In this document: in pieces, positions 13,783 to 47,803 of the stretch | Layout of the letters: the number at the start of each line of letters is the position of its first letter | Position numbering within the stretch: the stretch's first letter is position 1 | NCBI GenBank assembly: GCA_905250025.1 | Contig: CAJNOJ010000018.1 | Span: 62,001-126,000 of the forward strand | Origin: Adineta ricciae | Taxonomy: Eukaryota > Rotifera > Eurotatoria > Adinetida > Adinetidae | Reading direction: 5' to 3' | Length of the DNA: 64,000 nt | Notes under the pieces: generated by a model | Databases searched by the model: none | Told to the model about the DNA's origin: nothing | The model's input: the letters and a program-made list of their open reading frames with translations, nothing else | Translations under genes and position numbers: made by a program

Positions 13783-15484
13783 ATGGCAGCAAACCAAGGC
13801 AAAGGCGTAAGATAGACTGTACATTGATAACTGATTACTTTCAGTAGTGATTCTTTTAGACACTTTATACATTTCCCGGTAATTTTCGTGCTTATAAAGC
13901 TCAAATTGCAGCTCAATACAGCGGAGCACAATTAACAATTGCTGGTAATGATAAATTCAAAATGAATGACACCAACCGATCGCAAGAATACCTTGAAAAG
14001 TTTCCAACAGGCAAAGTATGTTGAGGAGAAAACAATAAAGAAAAACGAGAAGACACATATCCTTTATTCATACGTCTAGGTTCCGGCTTATGAGAATGAT
14101 GCCGGTGTTCAATTATTTGAATCCAATGCTATTGCTCATTTTCGTACGTATACAAAATGATGCTTCCGCTTTGACGTTTTCTCTTTTTCAATTAATCCAG
14201 TTTCAAATGAACAACTTCGCGGTAAAACACCTGCAGAACAAGCTCAAGTTCTTCAATGGATTGAATATGGTGAACGAGAAATCAATCCTGCATCAGCTAC
14301 ATTGGTGTATCCATGCATGGGCATCATGCAGTTCAACAAACAAAACCACGAACGTGCTAAAGATGAATTAAACCATATCTTACAATTATTGAACAACTAT
14401 CTTCACACCCGAACATATCTTGTTGGTGAACGTATTACTTTAGCCGATATCGCCGTTGCTTGTGATTTATTATTACTCTTTCAATGGGTATGTCCAGATA
14501 ATCAGTCCGATGTGTAAAAAGACAGTTGCTCTCTGTTGCTATAGATCGTCGAACCAAGCTTACGTGAACCATATCCACATACTACTCGTTGGTTCTTGAC
14601 ATTGATCAACCAAAAGGAATTTCAAGCTGTTCTTGGCAACGACTACAAATTATGCGAAAAAACAGCACAATTTGATGGTAAATCCGAGGAAGTCGTTTTC
14701 GAGATATCATTTTTTTCAAAATTCATTTAGCCAAGAAATATGCTGAAGTTTCTCGTCAAGCACAACCAGCCCAAGCACAAGGACGAGCCAAGAACGTTTC
14801 ACAATCCACCGATGATGGTAAAGCTGACAAGAAGAAAGCTAAGGAAGAAAAACCAGCCAAGGAAGCTCCAAAACCGGCTAAGAAAGAAAAAGCTGCTGAA
14901 GCTAACGATGAAGAAGAAGAAGATGATATTCTTGCCAATGAACCAAAACAAAAGGATCCATTCGCTGATATGCCAAAAACATCACTCAATATGGATGAAT
15001 TCAAACGTGTTTATTCTAATGAAGATACAGCTACAAAAGCAATTCCATATTTCTGGCAACATTTCGACAAAGAAAATTGTTCAATCTGGTTTTGCGAATA
15101 CAAATATCCCGAAGATTTAACTCAAGTCTTCATGACCTGTAACTTAGTATCGGGATTCTTTCAACGTTTGGACAAATTACGTAAACATGCATTTGCCAGC
15201 ATGTGTGTTTTTGGTGAAAACAACAACAATACAATTGCTGGAATCTGGGTTTGGCGTGGTCATGAACTTGCCTTCGAGGTAAGATTTATTCGAAGACATT
15301 TATCTGCTTATTTTTATCTGTTTATTTTTAGCTTTCACCTGATTGGAAAGTTGATTACGAATCTTATACATGGAAAAAATTATCAGCTGATGATGAATCA
15401 ACTAAACAATTAGTTAATCAATACTTCCTTTGGGAAGGCGAACACAACGGTAAAAAATTTAACCAAGGCAAAATCTTCAAATAA
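13783..15484 (+). CDS. EEF1G: Eukaryotic translation elongation factor 1-gamma
   Basis: Structural subunit of the eEF1B guanine-exchange complex that recharges eEF1A in the cytosol. Seven exons can be joined in frame: 13783-13806, 13860-14015, 14080-14143, 14201-14487, 14545-14677, 14731-15278 and 15332-15484, giving 454 residues, close to the usual ~440. All introns are 53-64 bp and GT-AG. The start MAANQGKG runs into [20 protein letters not shown], the GST-like N-domain (ESNAIAHF and [19 protein letters not shown] follow). A Lys/Glu/Ala-rich charged linker leads to the conserved EF1G C-domain ([33 protein letters not shown]) ending [10 protein letters not shown]. The first exon is only 24 bp and was placed by phase and by the family's short N-terminus. 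Confidence 0.97.
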
Positions 15485-30783: not shown

Positions 30784-33700
30784 TTATGCATAATAACTAG
30801 GTGATATGAGAACATCAGCAAGAATCACAAGTTGATCTTCAGTAAACTTTTCACGATGTTCATGCCACGAATCATAGTGAGTTCGACGAAATTCCGATAA
30901 TGCCTTCTTGATCGATTTCTACAACAAACACTCATTCACCTGCAAATGCATTACTCTCATCACACTCACTTGAATCAGATCAGGATCATGTGAATGCTCA
31001 CACAGTAACATCAATGCTTCAGGAACATGATTGGGAATATCGTATGGACTCGACAGCACGATCGCACAAAGACCAAGAACACCTCCATGTCGTTTGACAA
31101 TGTTCTCAGCCGACGTCACTTTCTTGCCATCGACTTTTACGAAATAACTAGTTTTGCTCATCACGCGAAAGTGTTTCTATACACAACAAGCAGACACAAT
31201 GAATTAGAGGGTGTGGGTGAGAGAGAGAGACAGAGAATGAGCATACCAGATCATCGTTGCTGACTTGAATGAATCCACACTGGTAGAAACCAGAGAGAGT
31301 GACCGAGGCGACAGTTCGCACTTCGAACTGTTCGTCGAAAAGACGCTTGAAGACGAGCTGTCGCAATCGTTGAGCATAGGGTCTGGTAGTGAAAAGATTG
31401 CAGAAGATCATGTTCTGAACGAACTCGATGGCAGCGCGTCGTGCATGCCATTTTGTGCTAGAACAAACCTAAGAGGAGAGAAGTGAAAGATGTGGATATG
31501 TGGGTGAACTGTTTACATGTTCGAGTTGTTCGATCAATGGTTCAATGAATGACGTTTGAAGGTAAGTAACTGCTAAGTACATTCGACTTATAACAGTACT
31601 TTCACGAATAAAGTCATCGTTAGAGATAATACTGTCAATTTCGCAGAGCTAAAATAGACAAGAAATTGATGATGCATAAATCTTTGCAATTGGATAAAAA
31701 AAAGTGTACATGAGGAAATAGACGGATGATCGAACTTTTGACCGGTTGAAGGTAACCAGAAAACATCAGTGTGTGTAGTTGAACAACTATGTCAAAAGGG
31801 AAACGAATGTATTGTTAATAGAAGAGGGAATAAATTTGTACCTGACTCGATATAATTCAACGCTCTACGTGCTTCAGAATCGATTTCAACTCGTTCACCA
31901 GAGATGTTTGCTAGGAAAATCAAAGCAAAAGATTGATGGAAAAATAATTCAACGAAGATATACTACCTAATGGTGTTTGTTCATAGATTCGAATTGCTTG
32001 ATCCAATCGTTGACGTATGCCATCAATAAATTCATCAATTTTTGGATGACGAATTGATTGACCATCCGATAGTATCATATCAAAACTCAAGGAAGTTGAT
32101 AAAATACTAATAGACAAATAGAACTTTTCATTCGCTAGTCACAAAAAATCTCTTGTTATACCTGGCAATCCGTTCTCGTATGGCTTTGTATGGATGATCG
32201 AGATAGTCTTTTGCATACTGATTAATGGTGCACCATATCGCAGGAATACGCCATTCGAAATTGCTTAATTTTTGTACAAGAGTCCATTGCGATGTGGCTA
32301 GAAATGTGTTTCCTGTAGCATGTGTATTTATCAATGATCGAAGAAATTCAATCGGACGATACATTCGACGTGGATCCTCATCTTCCTAAAAATGTAAAAC
32401 AATATGTATTTGATGACAGAGTGCATCTTTCTTAGTACGAACTATGCCGAATTTGAAACAAGATCCCCAATGTCCAACCGTTTCTGGACTAAGATTTGTA
32501 CAAACTTCAGCGAGAAATGGTGTCAACTTCTTCCACAGTTCTTCCAACTAAACATAGAATTGCCGTGAGTGAAAGCTCCACTTCTTGAATTGACTACATA
32601 CCATGTCTAAAGTCCAATGTTTCGAACCACGAATCATCGCTCCTGTTATCTCAGCTGCTACTCGATGACTTCCTTCTTGTGTTGTTGTTTTATCATGAAT
32701 AAGTTCGTATAAATACTTCATAAAACTATGCACTAACGGCAAACCGAAATTTCGAAAGAGGCCCTGCGAATGCAAAATGAAAATTGCAATGATTAGGTGC
32801 GTACAAGTTCAATCTACCTTGAACATTCGAAATCGATGAATATCAAAATTGATTTCTTCTTCTTCTTCATCTAACACCATAAACTGGATAAATTTACCTA
32901 TGAACTCTTGGTCGATAAATCTCTCATACAATATCAACACATCTTCTGGCATTGTTTCTCTCGTGTATCGTTCTCGCTTGTTCATCGGATATCGAATCAC
33001 TTTTGGCCACTTATAATATCCATGAAAGCTCTTGTCCAAGAAACAAGTTTCTTCCCATTGTTGCTGAGATGTAGGTGGTTTGTAGTCATTGATGGTGATC
33101 CAGAGATTGTCATCACGATCACCTGGACGACATTGATCGATATCGACAGGTCGCTGAAGAATCTGATCGAGTGTCTTTTCGACGTATATTCGAGGTGGTT
33201 TTTGAATGCGAGTAAATGCTGCGATACCTTTTTCTGAGATCTACACAAAGTCGTAAGACTATTTATGAATACGTTGGAGTAGAACAAAAAAGAGAAACCT
33301 TTCGTAGTTCGACATTATCGTGAATGAGAAAAGCGACGAATGTCCGAATGCAGGACGCTGGAATTGGAATACGTCTTTGTAGGAGTAGCCAAATAAAAGC
33401 CATCGTCATTTCTTGTTGTCGCCATGTTCTTCAAATATCAAGAGAAGAATTCATAGTATGTCGAGAGAAGAAAAAGATGAGAACATACAATACATCTCCA
33501 TAGAATAGAGCGTTTAAAGTTTCCATCAAATTGTTATAAGACAGAATATTCGCTTGATTTCGTTCTTCTCTCAGTTGATCTCGTGATACTAATTCACTAG
33601 CGTCCAGTGGTCTCCACAATGCAACAGCAGCTTGTACAGACGCATCATTGGTATCTTCAGTAATCGCAGGTGTATCGAATTGTTTGCCGATTTTTTCCAT

Positions 33701-36700
33701 AATTCGATCGAGAAGGTTTTGTGTGCTGATTTTCGTCGCGTGCTTCGTGCGTGCAAGTGACGGCCATAGTTTTTCAAGTAATGTCCATGAATGTTTTGTT
33801 GGAATAAAAATCGAGTCATTGCCAAGAAGGATATAAAGACAACCTTTGATTTGATCGTGATCTGCTTCACCTGGACTGTTGAGCAATTCCAGAATTCGAT
33901 CAATAATCACTTGATATGAGAAGAGATAACGTCGTAAAATATGAAACAGGTACACTTGCGCATTGCGTCGTACCTTGAAAGAAGATATTTCAGCGACGGA
34001 TCAAGTATCTTTCGGCTTACTTCACTGTAACGATGGATTGATAATTCGAATAGTTTCAAAATGACTTGTTTATCGATTTCAGTCAAACTTTGATAATTAC
34101 TGACCGAAAACAACTATGAACAAAAAGCGGCTATATCACAATGTTCTACTGCAGATGAAAGTGTTACTTCTAATTGAACATTAATACGTTTGATAATGAT
34201 ATAACGCGGATGCTTTCGTTTGCCAACTAATTTATTTTTAAATAATGCTTTATTCGTTTCGAGACTTTTGCATAGTTTTTCGACATAATTTTCAAATACG
34301 CCAAAGTAGACAGATGTTATTGAATATATCTAAGCAAAAAGAGGAGACGAATTTTCGCGAAGAGATACTAAACATCAAAATTACCTTCAGAGCTGTTTTT
34401 AGCGATGAAGCATCATCAGAATGATTTTCGACAAGATCATCTAAATAGACAAGAAATATATACATTTCAGTTCATTTGACCGCTTAAGCAATTACCAAGT
34501 AACTTTCCAATGTCGGTTAATAGACGCATTCGTAGATTTTCTTTGAAATCTAAAAAATTGGGAAAATATCTTTACGATCAGAACTGACTCTTTTGATTTA
34601 CTCGTAACTTACGAGGCTCTTTAGCGTATAACGCGCATTTGGCACGTTTATTCGTATCAATTGGTACCACAGATGGTACTCTACAGACGAAATAGTTTTC
34701 AGTTTCGAAGTTTTCAAATATGACTCACAGATTTTTCACTTCCGGACTATCAATACGTGGCACCATACGAAAACATCCAATAGCCATGAATCGAATTAAT
34801 GTAAGTGATCTTAATCGTTCATCGTTCGACATTTTCGAGCATTTTTCATTCAACAATTCCAATTCCGGATAAATGAATCTTTCGACAAACTCACATGCAA
34901 AGTCGACTTCTTCAGCATTTGGAATATGGAATTTCACTTGAAGTTTGTCGAATTCAACATGTTGGCCCCATGCCTACAGTACAATCAGGATTTTGTTAAT
35001 GGTCTGGCATACAACACAAGTAAGCTTACTCGAATAGGAAGAAAATCAGTGAAGGGCTCCTCGATGTTTTCTACCGTTAAACGATAATCTATTGGATGGG
35101 TGTAGGCCAGAGATTTGATCAAGTTTCTTGCCGCATTGGCCAAAGCTTCATAAGATTCCTTATGAATGATATGTATGCATTGATGGAAAACCGAAAGAAT
35201 CACTGGTTTATAGACGAGTAGTGTATCACCTCGAGCACGAAGAAGTTCAGAAAATAATGTTAGACACCAAGTTAATTCTGCATCTCCCTTATGATCAGTT
35301 AATACCAACGAATCGGATTGCTGGATTATCTTTGTAATTCGTTCACATGTTTGTGGTAGAAGAGACTTAAGTGTTTCTTCGGGTTTCCCTGTAAGAATAG
35401 CTCGTACTAAACCATTAACAAATTTGCCTGTTTTAGGCGAAAATGAAGATACTGCTATGAAGTTTGTTATTTTCTCTTTAATCATCTAAATCGATGTTAT
35501 TCCAATGTGTTGGGATCGAATAGTTGAGATGAACAAAACATACTTGGAAGATTTTATCACTACACTGTTCAGTGATGCCAGAAATCATGTTAGTCAATTC
35601 TTGAGTAGCTTCTTGATCTTCAGAATTTGTTTCGTTCGTTAACATTACTGCATCGGACATCTCAGTTGCTACAGTGTCAATCATTTGAAATGTTCGATTG
35701 AGAAATTCACTGATGAAATCTTCGAACTTTGCTGTTGACAAACACACCTCTTTTTCAATCTAACACACGTGAACAACAAGAAATAATTCACACTATTCGA
35801 TACAAGTATGACGCACCTCGGTGAGATCGTTTCGAGTATGTACAGCCGATGAGCAATCAACACATGTGATAAGTATGAGTATAGCATTGAGAAATTGAAA
35901 AGTAACCGCTGTCTTTTTGAAATCATTGGAATCGATACCAGGTAGAACGGCCATCAACAATGGCAAGACATAGGTTTGACCTTGGGAAAAGCTCGGCGTT
36001 TGCTGTACAATCTGTCTTGTCATACCAGCCAGACAAGTGATAACAGCAGTGAAACGATGTGGCTCAGTAATACTATCGATGGAAGAAAATAATCTAGACA
36101 ATTGATTTAAAAAAACAATCGATTAGATATTTGAAGACGAAAAAGCAAAACGAATACGAACAATTCAACTAATGGTGGAACAATTAATTCTGGTCGAAGT
36201 TGAGATAGAGATTGACATGCTTTCGCTGCTTCTTCGAGATTTGCTTTGTTGAATATCGAAATGAACACACATTCTTTCACGCAATTAACAAACTCCGTAA
36301 TATCGTCTTCGGTAAGTTGATGCGACGCAAGTGGTTTGAAATGCCAGACACGATCAGGTTTTCGTTCTCTAGAAGACATTTATCAGCATAATTAGAGAAC
36401 GAAACTGAATTGCACATACAAATGAACTCGATCGACGAATGCTTGCGATAATTTCGAAAGAAATCGAATGAGATCTCGTTGGAAATCTCCCGTATTCGAC
36501 GGATGATAAAAACTCTTTGTTGCCGTAAAGAAGTCTTTCAAATACCGTAAGCACGAACTTCCATTGCCCATCATCGCGACAAGCCACGTTGATATAATTG
36601 TCAACGAATAATTTTGCGATTGAGTAGATACTTGAACATTGGCAACCGGAAGTGAAAAGCTTTTCAATATACGTGTAAAAATCTAATGAGAAATCATAGG

Positions 36701-37724
36701 ATATTATATAAACATAACCGTGATAATGTATAGAAACAATACTTTTGGAAGCCAAGGTTCCCAATCAATGTAACCAATATTACACCATGCCACAAAGGAA
36801 AATATATTGATTACATTCTAAAAGAGTTCATCTCGAAATTGTCGGATTCATTTTGTAGACAAAAAACAAACTTGTTCCCAGTCCGGATTGTTTGTTACAC
36901 TTTCCCAGATGTTCAGAAATTCCGGTAACCACAATCTAAATACAGAGCATTCATCCATCAAAGTTTTCATTCGTATCGAGGCTTCGTACTTAAATCCTTG
37001 TTCATGTAGTTCCGGTGGTAAATGAACAGGTAATAGTAAATCAAAATAACACATCGCATCACTAAATGCTGAATCAAAGGGACATAGGGATGGTCGAAAT
37101 TGATCCAAAATCTCTTGTGTTGCTGTGGCAGATAAATACGGTCGACAACTGCGGACACAGTACAGAAGCGATTTTTCAACATCACTAAATAAGTGAAGGA
37201 CAAATGACTTCGTTTGCATCGAAAATCAATACAAACTTTGGCAAAGCTACTAATGAATAGGATTCATCGTTATTGAAAAGAATCAATTTGATCCATGTAT
37301 GAAGTATATGCCAATCGATAATGAGATCATCTCTTGTGATTAAACGAGACTTGCTAAAATATAGATTGGAACATATGAACGTCGGATGAAGGTAGACTCA
37401 CCTTAAGAGTTCGTCCATGATGTCGAAACTTGTTTTCGCATTGGAAAAGTTCAAGTCCGGAATTGTCAGAACGGTTAAGTACAAGTGAATTAATTTCAGA
37501 TGATCGCTCTTCGTAAATGAATAACCATAGAGTGAAATGAATTGTTGTAATTTCGATGACCATAATGGAAAGCCGGGTCTTAATTCACGTAATTGAATAA
37601 TTCGAGAAAGATTTTCACAAATTTCTTCGAATGATTCTAAACTTTGCTGTTTGATGGTATCATAAAATGGCAAAAATGTGTTATAGACATTCGGTTTTTG
37701 TAGATTAGTTTTTTCATAAGTCAT
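30784..37724 (-). CDS. PSME4: Proteasome activator PA200 (PSME4), copy 1
   Basis: Large HEAT-repeat cap that binds the ends of the 20S proteasome and opens its gate, mostly nuclear. The start at 37724 gives [20 protein letters not shown] and then [20 protein letters not shown], matching the PA200 N-terminus. Landmarks along about 30 short exons: [112 protein letters not shown]-like HEAT segments, [40 protein letters not shown]. The protein ends in ISPSYYA: a C-terminal Tyr-Tyr-Ala, the tail that PA200/Blm10 inserts into the 20S alpha ring. All blocks I inspected are open. A second copy lies directly upstream in tandem. Confidence 0.93.
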
Positions 37725-38834: not shown

Positions 38835-41800
38835 TCAAGCATAATAACTAGGTGATATGAGAACATCAGCAAGAATCACAAGTTGATCTTCAGTAAACTT
38901 TTCACGATGTTCATGCCACGAATCATAGTGAGTTCGACGAAATTCCGATAATGCCTTCTTGATCGATTTCTACAACAAATACTCATTCACCTGCAAATGC
39001 ATTACTCTCATCACACTCACTTGAATCAGATCAGGATCATGTGAATGCTCACACAGTAACATCAATGCTTCAGGAACATGATTGGGAATATCGTATGGAC
39101 TCGACAGCACGATCGCACAAAGACCAAGAACACCTCCATGTCGTTTGACAATGTTCTCAGCCGACGTCACTTTCTTGCCATCGACTTTTACGAAATAACT
39201 AGTTTTGCTCATCACGCGAAAGTGTTTCTATACACAACAAGCAGACACAATGAATTAGAGGGTGTGGGTGAGAGAGAGAGACAGAGAATGAGCATACCAG
39301 ATCATCGTTGCTGACTTGAATGAATCCACACTGGTAGAAACCAGAGAGAGTGACCGAGGCGACAGTTCGCACTTCGAACTGTTCGTCGAAAAGACGCTTG
39401 AAGACGAGCTGTCGCAATCGTTGAGCATAGGGTCTGGTAGTGAAAAGATTGCAGAAGATCATGTTCTGAACGAACTCGATGGCCGCGCGTCGTGCATGCC
39501 ATTTCGTGCTAGAACAAACCTAAGAGGAGAGAAGTGAAAGATGTGGATATATGAGTGAACTGTTTACATGTTCGAGTTGTTCGATCAATGGTTCAATGAA
39601 TGACGTATGTAAATACGTCATGGCCACACACATTCGACTAATAGTTAAGTTCTTTCGGATAAAATCATCATTGGCAACGATGCTTTCTAATTCGCAAAGC
39701 TAAAACAGTCAACGTGTTACATTGATATTTGTGTAAAAAAACATCATACAGATGGAAATAAACGAATAATTGCAAGTTTCATCGGTTGTAAACATCTGGT
39801 GAAGAAATGTGTATGCATTTGTATCACTGAAGAGTGGAAAGCTTTCAATTGTACTTCCGAGGAGAACATTTTCTTGCTTACTGACCTGTTTCAATGAAAT
39901 TCAAAGCTTTGCGAGCTTCAGGATCGATTTCGACCACCTGTCCTGATACGTTGGCTGAAATAGAATATATTATATAATAGTTATCACTTTGCAGAATTAT
40001 TTACCCAATGGTGTTTGTTCATACACTCGAATTGCTTGATCCAATCGTTCACGCATGGCGTCAATAAACTTATCTGCATTCGGATGACGATCTGCTTGGC
40101 CATTAGGTAATTTGACGTCATAACTCAATGACACCGATAGAATACTGAACGAACAAATGGATTTCATGTACAAAATGACTGTCTCATAATTCCTTACTTC
40201 GCGATTCGTTCCCGAAAAGCTTTATATGGATGATCAATCAACTCTCGAGCTTGTTCATTGATCATACACCACATAGCTGGTACGCGCCACTCAAAATTGG
40301 TCAACGTTTGCACCAGATACCAACGTGAAGTTTCAATAAATGTGTTTCCTGTGGCATGTGTATTTATCAATGATCGAAGAAATTCTATTGGACGATACAT
40401 TCGACGTGGATCTTCATCTTCCTGCGAGTAAGACGTGAGATTTTAAGTGATGAATAGATCATTTCCACTTACTATTCCTAGTTTAAAACATGTGCCCCAG
40501 TGTGAGAGCGTTTCAGGACCAAGATTTGAGCACACTTCAGTGAGAAATGGTGTCAACTTCTTCCACAACTCATCAAGCTAGAAATCAGGAGACGGGTTCT
40601 TTTTGCGAAAGATAAATTTCCCAGCAACAAACCATTTCTATTGTCCAACACTTTGAACCTCGAATCATTCCAGCTACAATTTCGGCTGCGACTCGATGGC
40701 TTCCTTCGTGTTTTTCTTTTGTTTTCTCACGTATTAGTGTGTATAATCGTTCAATAAAATTATCAACAAAAACCAAACCAAAATTACGAAACAATCCCTA
40801 TGAAAATAAATCAAATAATATTTCAGATGATGAAAAGTAAATGTTCGTCTTTACTTTGAACATATTGAATCGTCTTGCATCGAAATTAATCTTTCCTTTC
40901 TCTTCATCCAACACCATAAACTGGATAAATTTACCTATGAACTCTTGGTCGATAAATCTCTCATACAATATCAACACATCTTCTGGCATTGTTTCTTTCG
41001 TGTATCGCTCTCGCTTGTTCATCGGATATCGAATCACTTTTGGCCACTTATAATATCCATGAAAGCTCTTGTCCAAGAAACAAGTTTCTTCCCATTGTTG
41101 CTGAGATGTAGATGGTTTGTAGTCATTGATGGTGATCCAGAGATTGTCATCGCGATCGCCTGGACGACATTGATCGATATCGACAGGTCGCTGCAGAATC
41201 TGATCGAGTGTCTTTTCGACGTATATTCGAGGTGGTTTTTGTAAACGACAAACGGCTGCGATACCTTCTTCAGCAATCTACAAAAACTGAGATAAGCGAA
41301 ATCAATTGAGAAAGAAGAAAATGTAACCTTTCGTAATTCAACATTGTCGTGAACGAGGAAATCGACAAACGTGCGGACACACGATGTTGGGATTGATACT
41401 CGTTTCTGAAGAAGTAACCACATTAATGACATTGTTGTTTCCTGTTGTCGCCAAGTTCTAAACATTGCAAAAAGGCAAAGTAAATGTATTTTAGGTCGTT
41501 ATCGTGACTTACAGAGAATCACCCTTTAGTAGTCCATTCAATGCTTCCATAAGATTGTTATAGGATTGAATATTTGCTTGATTTCTTTCTTCCCTCAATT
41601 GATCTCGAAATTTCAACGCCTCACTGTCTAATGGTTTCCATAAATCGATTGCCGCTTTTCGTGCTATGTCATTTGTATCTTCAATTAGTGCTTGCGTATC
41701 AAATTGTTTGCCAATTGTTTCATTGATAAGATCCATTAGACGTTGAGTAGTGGGCTTTTTCGCATGTATGGTTCGTGCCATCGCTGGCCAAAGTTTTTCA

Positions 41801-44800
41801 ATCATTGACCAAGAATGTTTAGTTGGTAAGAAGAATGATTGATTGCCAAGAAGAATATAAAGACAGCCTTTGATTTGATCGTGATCTGCTTCGCCTGGAC
41901 TATTCAGCAATTCAATGATTCGATCGACAATAACTTGATAAGAAAATAAATAACGATTAAGAACAGAGAATAAATAGCCTTGTGCATCACGTCGAACCTT
42001 AATGAGCAAAGAATAGTTAAGAGAAGATTAGCTGAGAATCAGAATACTCACTTCACCGTATCGATGTATGGATAAATCAAATAATTTTAGAATAACTTGT
42101 TTATCGATCTCAGTGAGCGATTGAAAGTTACTTAGAGAGAATTGCTAAAAAGAGCACAGCAAATGTATTGATTGAAAAATCGTTTTCATGCAAGATCTTT
42201 ACTTCACACTGCAATGTCATTCGTTCAATCATCAAAAATCGTGGATATTGTCTTTCGCCGTATAGTTTGTTAATGAACGAATTCTTTGCAGCCTCAAAAT
42301 GCTTATGTAACTTATCTGCATCGTGTTTAAATACACCATAATAAATCGATGATAGAGAATAAATCTAAAAGTAATTTTCTAGATCGTCTCCAAAGTAATC
42401 GAGATGAATGAACGTACTTTCAATGCCGTCTTTATCGATGAGGCATCATCCGAATGATTTTCAACAAGAATATCTAAATGAAAAATGAATATATCCCATC
42501 TGGTAGTTTGTGTACTAAATTTTACCGAGTAATTTGCCGATGTCAGTTAAAAGACGCATTCGTAAATTCTCTTTGAATTCTAAAGAAGATCATGTTTTAC
42601 AAAACGTAACACTTTGCTTATACAATGACTATACTTGGTTCTTTTTCATAGATTGAATACTGTGCTTGATATTTTGAACCATATGGAGCAACAGATGGAA
42701 CACTAAAATTAGAATAGATCATCCGATCAAACAAACGATAGCTGAAAGTTCCTTACAGATTTTCTATATCTTTACTATTGATACGTGGTACCATTCTTAA
42801 ACATCCAATAGTCATATAATGAACAAGAGTAAATGATCTTAATCGTTCGTCATTCGACATTTTCGAGCATTTTTCATTCAACAATTGCAGCTCCGGGTAG
42901 ATAAATGCTTCGGCAAACTCACATGCGAAATCGACCTCTTCGGCGTTTGGAACATGAAATTTCACTTGAAGATTATCGAATTCGACATGTTGACCCCATG
43001 CCTACAGTACAATAAGGATTTTGTTAATGATCATGCATACAAAACGAGTAATCTTACTCGAATAGGAAGAAAATCAGTGAAGGGCTCCTCGATATTTTCC
43101 ACTGTTAAACGATATTCAGTTGGATATACATAAGATAATGACTTGAGTAGATTCTTCGCCGCACTTGCTACTGCTTCATGTGTTTCTTTATGAATGATAC
43201 GAACACATCGATGAAACACCGACAGAATCATCGGTTTATAGATGAGCAGTGTATCACCACGAGCACGAACTAATTCCGAGAAAAGAATTAAACACCAAGT
43301 CAATTCAGTATCCCCTTTGTGGTCAGTCAAGATAGTTGTTTCCGAATGACTCATGATCTTTTCAATACGTTCACATGTTTGTGGTAAGAGATATTTCAAT
43401 GTTTCCTCCGGTTTGCCTTTAAGAATAGCTCGTACAAGACCAGTGACAAGCTTTCCAACTTTTGGAGTAAAGAATGATCCAGCAAGGAAATTGGTGATTT
43501 TCTCGCGTACCATCTAAAGAAATACTTCGCAGCAGATTTATTATCAATGAATTCGTTTACCTGAAAGATTTTATTACTACATTGTTGAACGATGCCAAAC
43601 ATCATCGATGTCAACGCTAATTCAGTTACATGATCTTCAACATTCACCTTTGATATAACCACAACAGCATCTGACATTTCGGTTGACAAGGTATCAATCA
43701 TTTGAAATGTTCGATTGAGAAATTCACTGATGAAATCTTCGAACTTTGCTGTTGACAAACACACCTCTTTTTCAATCTAACACAAGTGAACAACAAGAAA
43801 TAATTCGCACTATTCGATACAAGTATGACGCACCTCGGTGAGATCGTTTCGAGTATGTACAGCCGATGAGCAATCAACACATGTAACAAGCATGAGTATA
43901 GCATTGAGAAATTGAAAAGTAACCGCTGTCTTTTTGAAATCATTGGAATCGATACCAGGTAGAACAGCCATCAACAATGGCAAGACATAGGTTTGACCTT
44001 GAGAAAAATACGGTGTTTGTCGCACCATTTGTCGCGCAACACTTGCTAAACATGTCATAATTGACGTGAATCGATGTGGTTCACTCATACTATCGATGGA
44101 TGAGAAGAGTCTAAATTGGCAGCAAATGACATTTATTTTCGAACAAAAATTTGAATAGAGTGGCTGACTTTTCGACAATAGGTGGAATAATCAGTTCAGG
44201 TCGAAGCATTGATAAGTATTGACATGCTTTAGCAGCCTCTTTCAAATGAGCCTTTGTGAAAATTGCTATAAATGCACATTCTTTGACGCAATTAACAAAA
44301 TCTGTTATATTTTGTTCAGTCAATCGATACGATTCCGGTGGTGTAAAATACCAGATGGGATTTGCTTTACGTTCTCTAAACGAATCAAAACAATTAATTT
44401 ACTTTTGAGATTTTCATTCACTCACAGATGAACACGATCGACTAATGCTTGAGATAATTTCGAAAGGAAGCTAATTAATTCATGTTGAAATTTTCCCGTA
44501 TTCGAGGGATGATAGAAGCTTTTCATAGCGGTAAACAAATCCTGAAGATATTGTAAACATGTGCTGCCATTGCCTAACATAGCAATAATCCATGTTGTTA
44601 CACTCGACATCGAATAACGATATTGTTGAAGTGAAACTTGAATCTTTCCAACTGGCAAAGTAAAACTTTTCAGTATACGAGTGAAGATCTATGTGACAAT
44701 GGAATGACCGATAAGCAAAATCCATTTTCGAAAGCAATTACTCGTGGCAGCCAGGGTTCCCAATCAATATAACCAATATTACACCATGCCAATAGGGAGA

Positions 44801-45780
44801 AGAGATTAATCATATTCTTCAAAAACAAAGAAACATTGTTAATCAAGGGGAAAATCTCATCAATTCGTATTTACAAGTTCCCATGCTGGATTACTATAGA
44901 CACTTTCCCAAATGCCCATGAATTCTTCTAGCCATAGTCTAAAATGCACGGTGTCTTGGTAGATTCGAGAAAATTAATCTGAACGTGTCCTACTTAAATC
45001 CTTGATCATGTAGTTCTGGTGGTAAATGAACTGGTAAGAAGAGTTCAAAGATTCTCATTGTATCCGAAAATGCTGAATCAAATGGGCATAAATATGGCCG
45101 AAATTCATCAAGAATTTCTTGTGTCGCTGTTGCTGAAAAATAGGGTCGACATCCTCGTACACAATAGAATAAAGAATTATCGATATCACTTAAAAAAATA
45201 ATAAACAAAAGAATTAAGATGAACAAAAAACAGAGAAAACAAACTTCGGTAATGAAACTAATGAATATGGTTCATCATGATTGTGAAGAATCGTTTTCGA
45301 CCATTTGTATAACAGACGCCATTCAACCACGACATCATCCCGTGTGATTAACCGTGTTTTTCTAATACGAAGTAATTAATAGTAAAAATTCGATGAATAA
45401 AGAACAAACCTCATCAAATCATAGAGCATGTCAAAGCATGTTTTAACATGAGAAAAATCCAAATCATTGATAGAAAGAACTGATAAATATAGATGAATCA
45501 ATTTAATATGATCCGTTTTGGTGAAACATAGGCCATAGAGTGAAATGAACCGTTGTAACTTCGATGACCAATGCGAAAATCCCGGTCTTAATTCTCTGAG
45601 TTGGATAATGCGCGATAAATTCTCTTTGATTTCCTCGAACAAGTCATAGCCTTGTCGTTTGATCGAATCATAAAAAGGTAAATATTTATTGAAAATATTC
45701 GGCTTTTGAAGATTATCATCAGATGTATCCATCTCATCGATATCCGTACTCCGTTCACTTTCAATTTGTTGATCGTCCAT
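38835..45780 (-). CDS. PSME4: Proteasome activator PA200 (PSME4), copy 2
   Basis: Tandem paralog of the gene at 30784-37724, with the same exon order and nearly the same length. It starts [20 protein letters not shown], an acidic N-terminal extension that copy 1 lacks, then [18 protein letters not shown]. Conserved blocks include SCRPYF-type [83 protein letters not shown] and the C-terminal SPSYYA (stop TGA at 38835-38837; copy 1 uses TAA). Some segments are almost identical to copy 1 at the DNA level and others are clearly diverged (see findings). No stop or frameshift was noticed, so both copies probably work, perhaps with different N-terminal regulation. Confidence 0.92.
38839..39620 (-). 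repeat. Near-identical 3' block shared by the PSME4 copies
   Basis: Matches 30788-31569 with only a handful of base differences, including the introns. Similarity stops abruptly a few bases past the stop codon on one side and within the coding region on the other. Confidence 0.85.
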
Positions 45781-46354: not shown

Positions 46355-46537
46355 CAGCGGTCCAAGTAGAACTCAACGAGCTCTATCTAGTGTATGCTCA
46401 GTTTTTCCATAACTCAAGTTTTGATTTTTAGGCTTCCAGTAACGGCAGTACTGATCCGAAAAACCAAAGTTGGGACTAGGTCGCAACTGAGCATACCACT
46501 AGATAGAGCTCGTTGAGTTCTACCTGGAACGCATTCC
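46355..46537. repeat. Short fold-back repeat (~180 bp)
   Basis: The arm at 46368-46405 (GTAGAACTCAACGAGCTCTA onward) is matched in reverse complement by 46485-46523, ending TAGAGCTCGTTGAGTTCTAC, with one single-base indel. Weaker pairing extends a further ~10 bases outward. The ~80-bp centre has no coding capacity. It is probably a small MITE or foldback remnant. Confidence 0.75.
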
Positions 46538-46806
46538 TAAACAAATATGGAAAGCTTTGACTCGAATATTTCGTAAGGATATTTTCAACAAGGACAAGGG
46601 AGTCATGACATCTATAGGAGGGAGATGTCCCATGACATCACTATATCACATTCGAAATTACTTTTTCATTTCTTGGGCACTTGATTTTTTAATATTAGAT
46701 GACAATGGATAAATAGACTGTAAAATATCTGTCGACTTGATTATCCATTGAACGTATTTTTGGTTAACTTTGAACCGTGAAATGTACTTAACTAAGAATT
46801 ATGAAT

Positions 46807-46965
46807 GGCCTGCGCGAACGCAGGCCAGCGTCAAGAAATTAGCGGATCTCTTCTATTCATATGAATAGAAAGCGTACGTCAGCCGTGGACCGATGTGCAA
46901 TGGCCGGACCTTCACACGGCGGATCGAGGTTCTTGATCCTCGAAACCGCATCCGAAAGTAAGTAT
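46807..46965 (-). ncRNA. U1 snRNA with variant 5' end
   Basis: Read on the minus strand from 46965. The RNA begins ATACTTACTTTCGG; the first eight bases equal the standard U1 5' end, but positions 9-11 are UUU instead of CUG. Stem-loop I carries the U1-70K-type loop GATCAAGAAC closed by CGAGG/CCTCG. Stem-loop II carries the U1A-type loop ATTGCACATC. A perfect hairpin follows (TTCTATTC-ATAT-GAATAGAA, stem III). An Sm-like site, AATTTCTTGA, precedes a terminal hairpin GGCCTGCG-TTCG-CGCAGGCC, like the U1 3' stem-loop. Length 159 nt (U1 is about 160-165). The intact stems argue against a random pseudogene. Expression is not known. Confidence 0.88.
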
Positions 46966-47245
46966 GATTTGTACTTTAGATTTTTCATTTATTATATCAA
47001 GTTTAAATGCGAAACAAAACCGGTGAAACGTCTATAGTCATTTGATAAACAAACCGACAAGAAATCAGCGACAGTCGTGTGGGGAAGAACGAACGACACG
47101 ACACAATATTTTTATCACACTGATTCATACGTATGGAAGAACACAGAAAAGAAATGAATCATCAACGAGAAAACAACAGACATCTACTATGAAATTTGTG
47201 CGCTATCGCATATTATATAATAATGAAGAAGTCGAATTCATAAGC
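46966..47245. promoter_or_regulatory. Bidirectional snRNA promoter region
   Basis: 280 bp between two head-to-head U1 genes. An AT-rich element, ATATAATAATGAA (47215-47227), lies at -31 to -19 of the plus gene, and ATATAATAAATGAA (46984-46997, minus) lies at -32 to -19 of the minus gene. The matching sequence and distance from both 5' ends mark it as a probable core snRNA promoter element. I could not identify a shared distal (PSE-like) element by eye. Confidence 0.6.
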
Positions 47246-47406
47246 ATACTTACCTGCCACAGGAACTTCCTTGAACAAGAAGAAGGAAGCCCCTGGCGGA
47301 GGCCTTGTCATTGCACTCCGACAGCGCTAAAGCCAGCGAAAGGTTCACATAGAACCTTCTCGAGTGGATCATTTTTCCCAACGGATCGAGCGTTCGCGCT
47401 TGATCC
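47246..47406 (+). ncRNA. U1 snRNA with canonical 5' end
   Basis: Starts ATACTTACCTG, the standard U1 sequence that pairs with 5' splice sites. Stem I is CTTCCTT/AAGGAAG with loop GAACAAGAAG, one base off the usual GAUCA core of the U1-70K site. Stem-loop II has the exact U1A-type loop ATTGCACTCC. Stem III is built on GAAAGGTTC...GAACCTTCTC. A U-rich Sm-like site, ATTTTTC, precedes the terminal hairpin GGATCGAGCG-TTCG-CGCTTGATCC. About 161 nt. It is divergent from the variant U1 at 46807-46965. The long plus-strand open frame over this locus (47042-47626) is incidental. Confidence 0.93.
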
Positions 47407-47803
47407 TGCAATTTCAACTAACAATGAAACAACTCCAAATCCTTCATTTATTCTCCTTCCTTGCATAAATATATACCGACAAACATCTTTCTTTATTCAT
47501 ATTCTATTCCCCGATTCTCGCTTTCGAATATATAACGCACAGTACATGATAAACAACAAAAGAGTAACTCTCTTAAAAACTATACAAAATTCATGCATAA
47601 CATATATTTGGTTTTTGCAAACATAAATTAAAAGAGAAAAAGATGCATTTCTTCCGTTCGAAACAATAATAAAATTAACCATATTGATCACTAATATTTC
47701 ATTGGAGCTATTCCAATGTATTCAAAACTCAATACGAGATATTCTGAATGGAAGGCAAGTAAAGCAAGATTGTCTGGTTTTTTTCAATTTACATTGAACC
47801 GAA
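47407..47803. other. Gene-free spacer
   Basis: AT-rich, between the U1 gene and the 3' end of the MARVEL-like gene. Nothing else is seen. Confidence 0.4.

Follow-up and report, generated by a model that had tools for sequence, protein, structure and literature searches.

U1 small nuclear RNAs with a changed 5' splice-site recognition end are already known from flatworms and humans. In the planarian Schmidtea mediterranea, the variants U1C1 and U1C2 carry a C-to-U change at the base that faces donor position -1 and are expressed and enriched in stem cells, and in the excerpted text of that report the authors propose that the variants may read specific donors (PMC6312358). Excerpts of a human study describe a C-to-T change in the recognition end of vU1.3/.4 as allowing AT donors and state that vU1 knock-outs alter splicing (PMC13172311). 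The introns of the tunicate Fritillaria borealis are mostly non-canonical, and in the excerpted part of that paper divergent U1 is said not to be the route taken (PMC13326754). In human donors, A at -3 rises where G at +5 is missing, an effect attributed to U5 in the passages of a further paper that concern it (PMC8283771).

Whether a single animal can run two functional U1 particles, each with its own donor code, is an open question. Here we describe U1-UUU, a U1 gene of the bdelloid rotifer Adineta ricciae found in a window of 64,000 nucleotides (the whole stretch of DNA analysed). It resembles canonical U1 (RF00003) in its stem-loops, protein-binding loops, Sm-like site and the stretch AUACUUAC, and it differs from canonical U1 in carrying UUU instead of CUG at positions 9 to 11 and a PSE-like element of the U6/U11 type.

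Results

A full-length U1 gene with a changed exon-side end

The RNA encoded by U1-UUU is 161 nt long and matches the Rfam U1 model RF00003 with 86.2 bits (E 5.9e-20 within the window), above the Rfam cut-off of 69.5 bits; its extent is 46965-46805 by cmscan and was given as 46807-46965 in the original prediction. The parts of the locus, its neighbour and the donor example used below are as follows.

46805..46965, minus strand: U1-UUU (L005), variant full-length U1 snRNA gene (cmscan, RF00003, 86.2 bits, model positions 1-166 of 166)
46955..46965, minus strand: 5' splice-site recognition end AUACUUACUUU (sequence, position map)
46919..46949, minus strand: stem-loop I with U1-70K-type loop GAUCAAGAA (fold and position map)
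46895..46902, minus strand: stem-loop II, U1A-type loop CAUUGCAC (cmscan and position map)
46848..46873, minus strand: stem-loop III, base pairs reversed relative to canonical U1 (CUUUC/GAAGAG), common to L006 (alignment A1, pair counts)
46832..46842, minus strand: Sm-like site CUAAUUUCUUG (position map)
46807..46826, minus strand: 3' hairpin (stem-loop IV) GGCCUGCG-UUCG-CGCAGGCC (cmscan and position map)
46989..46998, minus strand: TATA-like sequence GATATAATAA at -33 (by eye; position map)
47007..47028, minus strand: PSE-like element TTTCACCGGTTTTGTTTCGCAT at -63, U6/U11 type (U6/U11 weight matrix; scan p 0.0032, optimistic)
47183..47204, plus strand: PSE-like element of canonical U1, U1/U5 type, at -63 (matrix scan, position map)
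47246..47408, plus strand: canonical U1 neighbour, start AUACUUACCUG (cmscan, 107.8 bits)
14010..14015, plus strand: example exon end GGCAAA before the predicted donor GT at 14016 (gene-finder intron list)

The original prediction of a minus-strand U1 with loop I, a U1A-type loop, an Sm-like site and a UUCG 3' hairpin was borne out by cmscan, fold and position map, and the UUU claimed in place of CUG at its 5' end is indeed what the sequence reads. U1-UUU starts AUACUUAC-UUU where canonical U1 starts AUACUUAC-CUG; positions 9 to 11 (46957-46955) are thus UUU, as they also are in a second gene, L006. Since canonical U1 also has U at position 10, the two forms differ at position 9, where U replaces C, and at position 11, where it replaces G. 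The GAUCA of the U1-70K-type loop, the U1A-type loop CAUUGCAC and the AAUUU of the Sm-like site are all present in the sequence.

Six U1 genes in two classes

The genome of A. ricciae (130 Mb, 1033 contigs) was searched with the Rfam model and with the exact pattern ATACTTAC...CATTGCAC, and both searches returned the same six U1 genes, with the qualification that the Rfam-model search scored 41 of 1097 candidates and that unscored candidates and U1 fragments lacking the exact pattern words would escape both. The six exact-pattern places are the Rfam-found genes and the reversed control gave 0 matches, so the match at U1-UUU is not a chance one. The UUU pattern had 0 matches in a viral collection.

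The intron-side pairing stretch AUACUUAC is identical in all six genes, and positions 9 to 11 read CUG in four and UUU in two (L005 and L006). The two UUU genes are unlinked, L005 lying on contig C18 and L006, which scores 76.7 bits (cut-off 69.5), on C131. Identity between the two is 58%, and that of each to the four CUG genes is 50-57%. All four canonical genes keep CUG, even though one of them shares no more than 64-66% identity with the rest. When a tree of the six genes was built by maximum likelihood, L005 and L006 came together in 94% of 200 bootstrap replicates, with branch lengths of 0.61 and 0.68 substitutions per site, a grouping to be read with the possibility of long-branch attraction and the inclusion of the UUU columns in mind. 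The two genes also share reversed pairs in the lowest part of stem-loop III (96-119, 97-118, 98-116 and 99-115).

Two of the U1 genes detected by cmscan lie head to head in the window, with 280 bases separating their starts. The regions that surround the U1 genes of contigs C24 and C35 are homologous, with 93-94% identity, and C18:644k is their more distant duplicate; bdelloid genomes have a degenerate tetraploid structure. Collinearity between the window and the ohnologous contig C472 extends over both flanks of the U1 pair, where the genes are presumably PSME4 and EVI5, but C472 has a different gene in between; cmscan (E up to 1) gave no Rfam match in the ohnologue stretch C472:1-15105. Comparison of the 40-kb L006 region with the window yielded no syntenic block, and one window stretch matched twice. 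The window also contains a tandem duplicate of a large gene, which we take to be PSME4-like (31263-37703 and 39314-45711, both matching C472 1190-7619), and encodes a single-exon protein whose identity to a protein of Adineta vaga is 83% and to one of A. steineri 77%.

Fold and covariation

Covariation among the six genes was assessed on alignment A1 with an RNAalifold structure, in which 91.3% of 286 cells pair and 30 of 48 pairs have changes on both sides. None of 500 shuffles reached any of the five observed pairing values, and slid versions had 6-9 both-side-changed pairs, against which the RNAalifold structure is favoured, having been derived from A1 itself. When L005 and L006 were compared alone, 12 of 46 comparable pairs were changed on both sides, and 13 of 46 were unpaired in one or both genes, partly through alignment error.

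Helix H, which is CGGA/UCCG in U1-UUU, is paired in all six genes in three different sequences (CCAC/GUGG, CGGA/UCCG and CCUC/GAGG). It lies directly behind the changed bases, and positions 9 to 11 are therefore the last free bases. A four-helix fold with helix H is predicted for U1-UUU. When the minimum-energy fold is computed without constraints, the U1A loop is hidden, but the canonical cruciform that leaves this loop open lies only 1.7 kcal/mol higher (-58.4 versus a minimum of -60.1). By covariation and the exact-pattern scan, U1-UUU is free of the stem or functional-loop decay expected of a pseudogene.

Upstream elements and flanks

The canonical U1 genes and the U5 genes have a common upstream element like TCTACTATGCAATTTNTGCG at -62/-63, and the U6 and U11 genes have a different one, like ATTCACCGNTTTTGTTTCT. 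A U6/U11-type PSE matrix, made from four genes (three U6 and one U11) in which the element starts at -64, -52, -65 and -66 from the Rfam match start, found its best match at -63 in L005 and at -65 in L006, with a scan p of 0.0032 each that is optimistic because the matrix seeds were picked by eye once the L005 upstream sequence had been seen. With the U1/U5-type matrix, L005 scored at chance level (p 0.74) and L006 matched only at -80 (p 0.014), p-values to which the same optimism applies. Shortly downstream of the four canonical U1 genes, an ATGAAA was noted by eye that may be a 3' box; no clear 3' box was visible by eye downstream of L005, and L006 had a weak likeness to one.

The flanks contain two inverted repeats. 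A 22-nt repeat, 73% complementary, comes from the TATA-like regions of the head-to-head genes (46976-46997 and 47215-47236). Just downstream of U1-UUU, at 46357-46532, another has arms of 36 nt that are 94% complementary and 104 nt apart, and is possibly a small mobile element.

Exon ends at predicted donors

Donor sites were taken from our own gene finder, which models the intron side of the donor only and leaves the exon side flat. Run on 236,981 bases, it predicted 316 introns, mostly 50-60 bases long, of which 228 were kept (42-90 bases, with an exon of 40 bases or more on either side) and 190 remained with one per paralogous group. Support for the predictions comes from thirty groups in which two or three introns lie between similar exons.

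At position -1 of the 190 donors, the counts were A 64, G 72, T 33 and C 21, against phase-matched expectations of 61.9, 34.2, 57.4 and 36.4, from which it follows that G is twofold enriched, that A as such is not and that the exon side is weak. T or C stood at -1 in 54 of the 190, and several of these have counterparts in paralogous copies of the gene. Donors of the form AAA|GU numbered 23 of 190 against 7.7 expected, an excess of about threefold (Poisson, 6e-6). The donor GCAAA|gtatgt cited in the original prediction, where the gene is named EEF1G, is among the predicted ones, as GGCAAA|GTATGTTG at 14016.

The neighbouring A residues depend on the base at -1. Among the 228 introns, the 82 donors with A at -1 had A at -3 in 37 (23.8 expected) and at -2 in 52 (31.1 expected); the 83 with G at -1 had A at -2 in 30 (19.1 expected) and little shift at -3 (A 30 versus 26.8, C 16 versus 15.4). 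With T at -1 (42 donors), A stood at -3 in 12 and at -2 in 16 (13.2 and 14.7 expected), and with C (21 donors) in 8 and 8 (7.5 and 6.4 expected). The interaction of A across the exon positions has an odds ratio of about 4 (z about 2.6). An excess of A at -2 and -3 given A at -1 is what a helix of U9-A(-1), U10-A(-2) and U11-A(-3) predicts and what C9 facing A(-1) does not. The excess stops at -3, A being found at -4 in 6 of the 23 AAA donors, and the stop coincides with the start of helix H in U1. These donors often have C at -4 (10 of 23), for which U1-UUU gives no account.

Synonymous codon choice at donors agrees, though not significantly, with U1-UUU pairing. At phase-0 donors, lysine codons were AAA in 16 cases and AAG in 5 (interior 1222 and 349), with no shift to G; glutamine and glutamate codons taken together ended in A in 12 and in G in 6 (interior 2444 and 470), a trend to G (p 0.058); and ten other codon pairs, pooled, leaned the same way with 7 against 8 (4970 against 2333 in the interior; p 0.096).

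The intron side speaks differently. G at +5 was present in 54 of 64 donors with A at -1, in 45 of 54 with T or C at -1 and in 46 of 72 with G at -1. Donors with A at -1 keep +5G as those with T or C do, so A at -1 acts as a mismatch that needs +5G. This strictness is the outcome that would be expected from a single CUG U1; if abundant U1-UUU served the donors with A at -1, some relief at +5 would be expected, though A-U is weaker than G-C. Within the AAA donors, 20 of 23 had +5G. By pairing energy, 64 of the 190 donors, about a third, would prefer U1-UUU.

Other spliceosomal RNA genes

Four U5 genes were found, all with the canonical loop GCCUUUUAC; a changed U5 loop as the partner of U1-UUU was rejected on this ground, and an origin of U1-UUU in the minor spliceosome was rejected since U11 genes exist separately. 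The U11 genes are two in number (L057 and L058, on C60), and a minor spliceosome may be present in A. ricciae. In a divergent U2 gene (L018, C155:54217-54417), the branch-site-pairing stretch is UUAGUA instead of the GUAGUA found in the 11 other U2 genes retrieved; this gene may be to U2 what U1-UUU is to U1. Three further U2 variants (L015, L016 and L017, on C8 and C6) share several changes in the 3' part and the loss of 2 bases from the 5' stem; their branch-site stretch is unchanged, and their upstream elements are unlike those of the main U2 genes. Among the U6 variants, L054 and L055 (C502) have changed bases before the ACAGAG box, and L056 (C237) looks decayed and is without the T run.

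Discussion

We consider U1-UUU to be, with high confidence, a real and maintained member of a second U1 class and not a decayed copy, on the strength of the covariation, the PSE-like elements and the UUU common to a second, highly diverged gene. Its retained U1-70K loop, U1A loop, Sm site and positions 1 to 8 would let it read the intron side of the donor (GURAGU) like ordinary U1, and on the exon side the UUU at 9 to 11 would pair best with AAA|GU, with G at -1 or -3 accommodated by wobble. Beside the four canonical CUG genes, U1-UUU would in this manner widen the set of donors selected by U1 particles. We infer its transcription, its assembly into a particle and its causal use at AAA donors. 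That it is a working gene of a second, old U1 class acting through UUU on AAA|GU donors is the reading towards which we lean, with modest confidence. Besides the +5G pattern, what weighs against this reading is that A at -1 is not enriched as such, that C is common at -4 of AAA donors, that L005 shows no clear 3' box by eye, that the ohnologous stretch of C472 contains no U1 and that 13 of 46 pairs are open in one or both UUU genes. The favouring of AAA|GU put forward in the original prediction gains from the approximately threefold excess of such donors, but the +5G pattern and the U5 loop leave room for an explanation with a single U1. Likewise, the proposal that a structurally intact U1 with changed exon-side specificity could form a second particle is upheld as to structure, promoter-like element and a second UUU gene, but the particle and the dependence of donors on it have the standing of candidates.

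The serious rivals to action of U1-UUU at AAA donors are redundancy and a U5 origin of the donor bias. The AAA|GU bias could stem from loop 1 of U5 (UUUU), whose U run can pair with AAA and is present in all four U5 genes found, and the A-3 effect of human donors is attributed to U5 in the relevant passages of PMC8283771. This account covers the donor bias alone and is compatible with other readings; we regard it as rather unlikely, because the excess of A at -2 and -3 occurs with A at -1 and hardly with T or C, and because most AAA donors have +5G, whereas the published effect, as excerpted, concerns donors without it. Among donors with A at -1, A at -3 was found in 28 of 54 with +5G and in 5 of 10 without, which in these small numbers is no trade-off. 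Alternatively, both UUU genes may be expressed and ordinary, exon-side pairing mattering so little that UUU is tolerated without donors of its own. The weakly constrained exon side, with T or C at -1 in 54 of 190 introns, is in keeping with such redundancy, and if positions 9 to 11 were free, a Jukes-Cantor estimate gives the two UUU genes, 1.29 substitutions per site apart, a chance of about 6% of still agreeing at all three. The AAA|GU excess, its dependence on A at -1 and the retention of CUG in four canonical genes, despite the divergence of one of them, argue against redundancy, which we judge unlikely.

Functions other than the cis-splicing of AAA donors, such as stage-specific regulation, protection from premature polyadenylation or trans-splicing, would suit a promoter element whose subtype differs from that of the canonical U1 and U5 genes, through which expression may differ, and recall the stem-cell enrichment of the planarian U1C variants in the excerpts of PMC6312358; nothing in this analysis points to any particular one, and we hold such a role to be improbable. 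The lack of a clear 3' box at L005, by eye, is what could be said for a U1 pseudogene or chance copy, the alternative that accompanied the original prediction. It is set aside as highly improbable, given stems that are intact and covarying, intact loops, a promoter-like element, a second diverged UUU gene in the genome and no further exact-pattern copy.

If the preferred reading of U1-UUU as a working gene is extended, bdelloid rotifers would possess two U1 particles with the exon codes CUG and UUU and their own shares of donors, donor ends and U1 classes having co-evolved; this is a tentative proposal, and its being correct is possible but doubtful. Two well-preserved UUU genes on different contigs, together with a matching donor bias, make the two-code question directly testable in Adineta, and a culture method for A. 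vaga has reportedly been published (PMC12650600).

Among the literature matches listed, there was neither an exon-side UUU class of U1 with a matching donor bias nor a rotifer U1 variant, and such a class beside an excess of AAA exon ends in one genome is apparently without precedent among them. In the excerpts available for comparison, F. borealis is like Adineta in combining unusual donors with a U1 that exists in multiple versions, but its two versions have identical 5' ends, whereas those of the Adineta classes differ (PMC13326754). The human vU1 genes (vU1.3/.4 and vU1.8) are, as excerpted, paralogous U1 genes changed in the recognition end and at other sites, as is U1-UUU (PMC13172311); the change in vU1.3/.4 falls on the intron side (AT donors), whereas bases 1 to 8 of U1-UUU are unchanged. 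The planarian U1C1 and U1C2 resemble U1-UUU in being structurally intact and in having U in place of C opposite donor position -1. According to the excerpted report, they have one alternative base in the motif and have been shown to be expressed, whereas the predicted RNA of U1-UUU has two, at positions 9 and 11 (PMC6312358).
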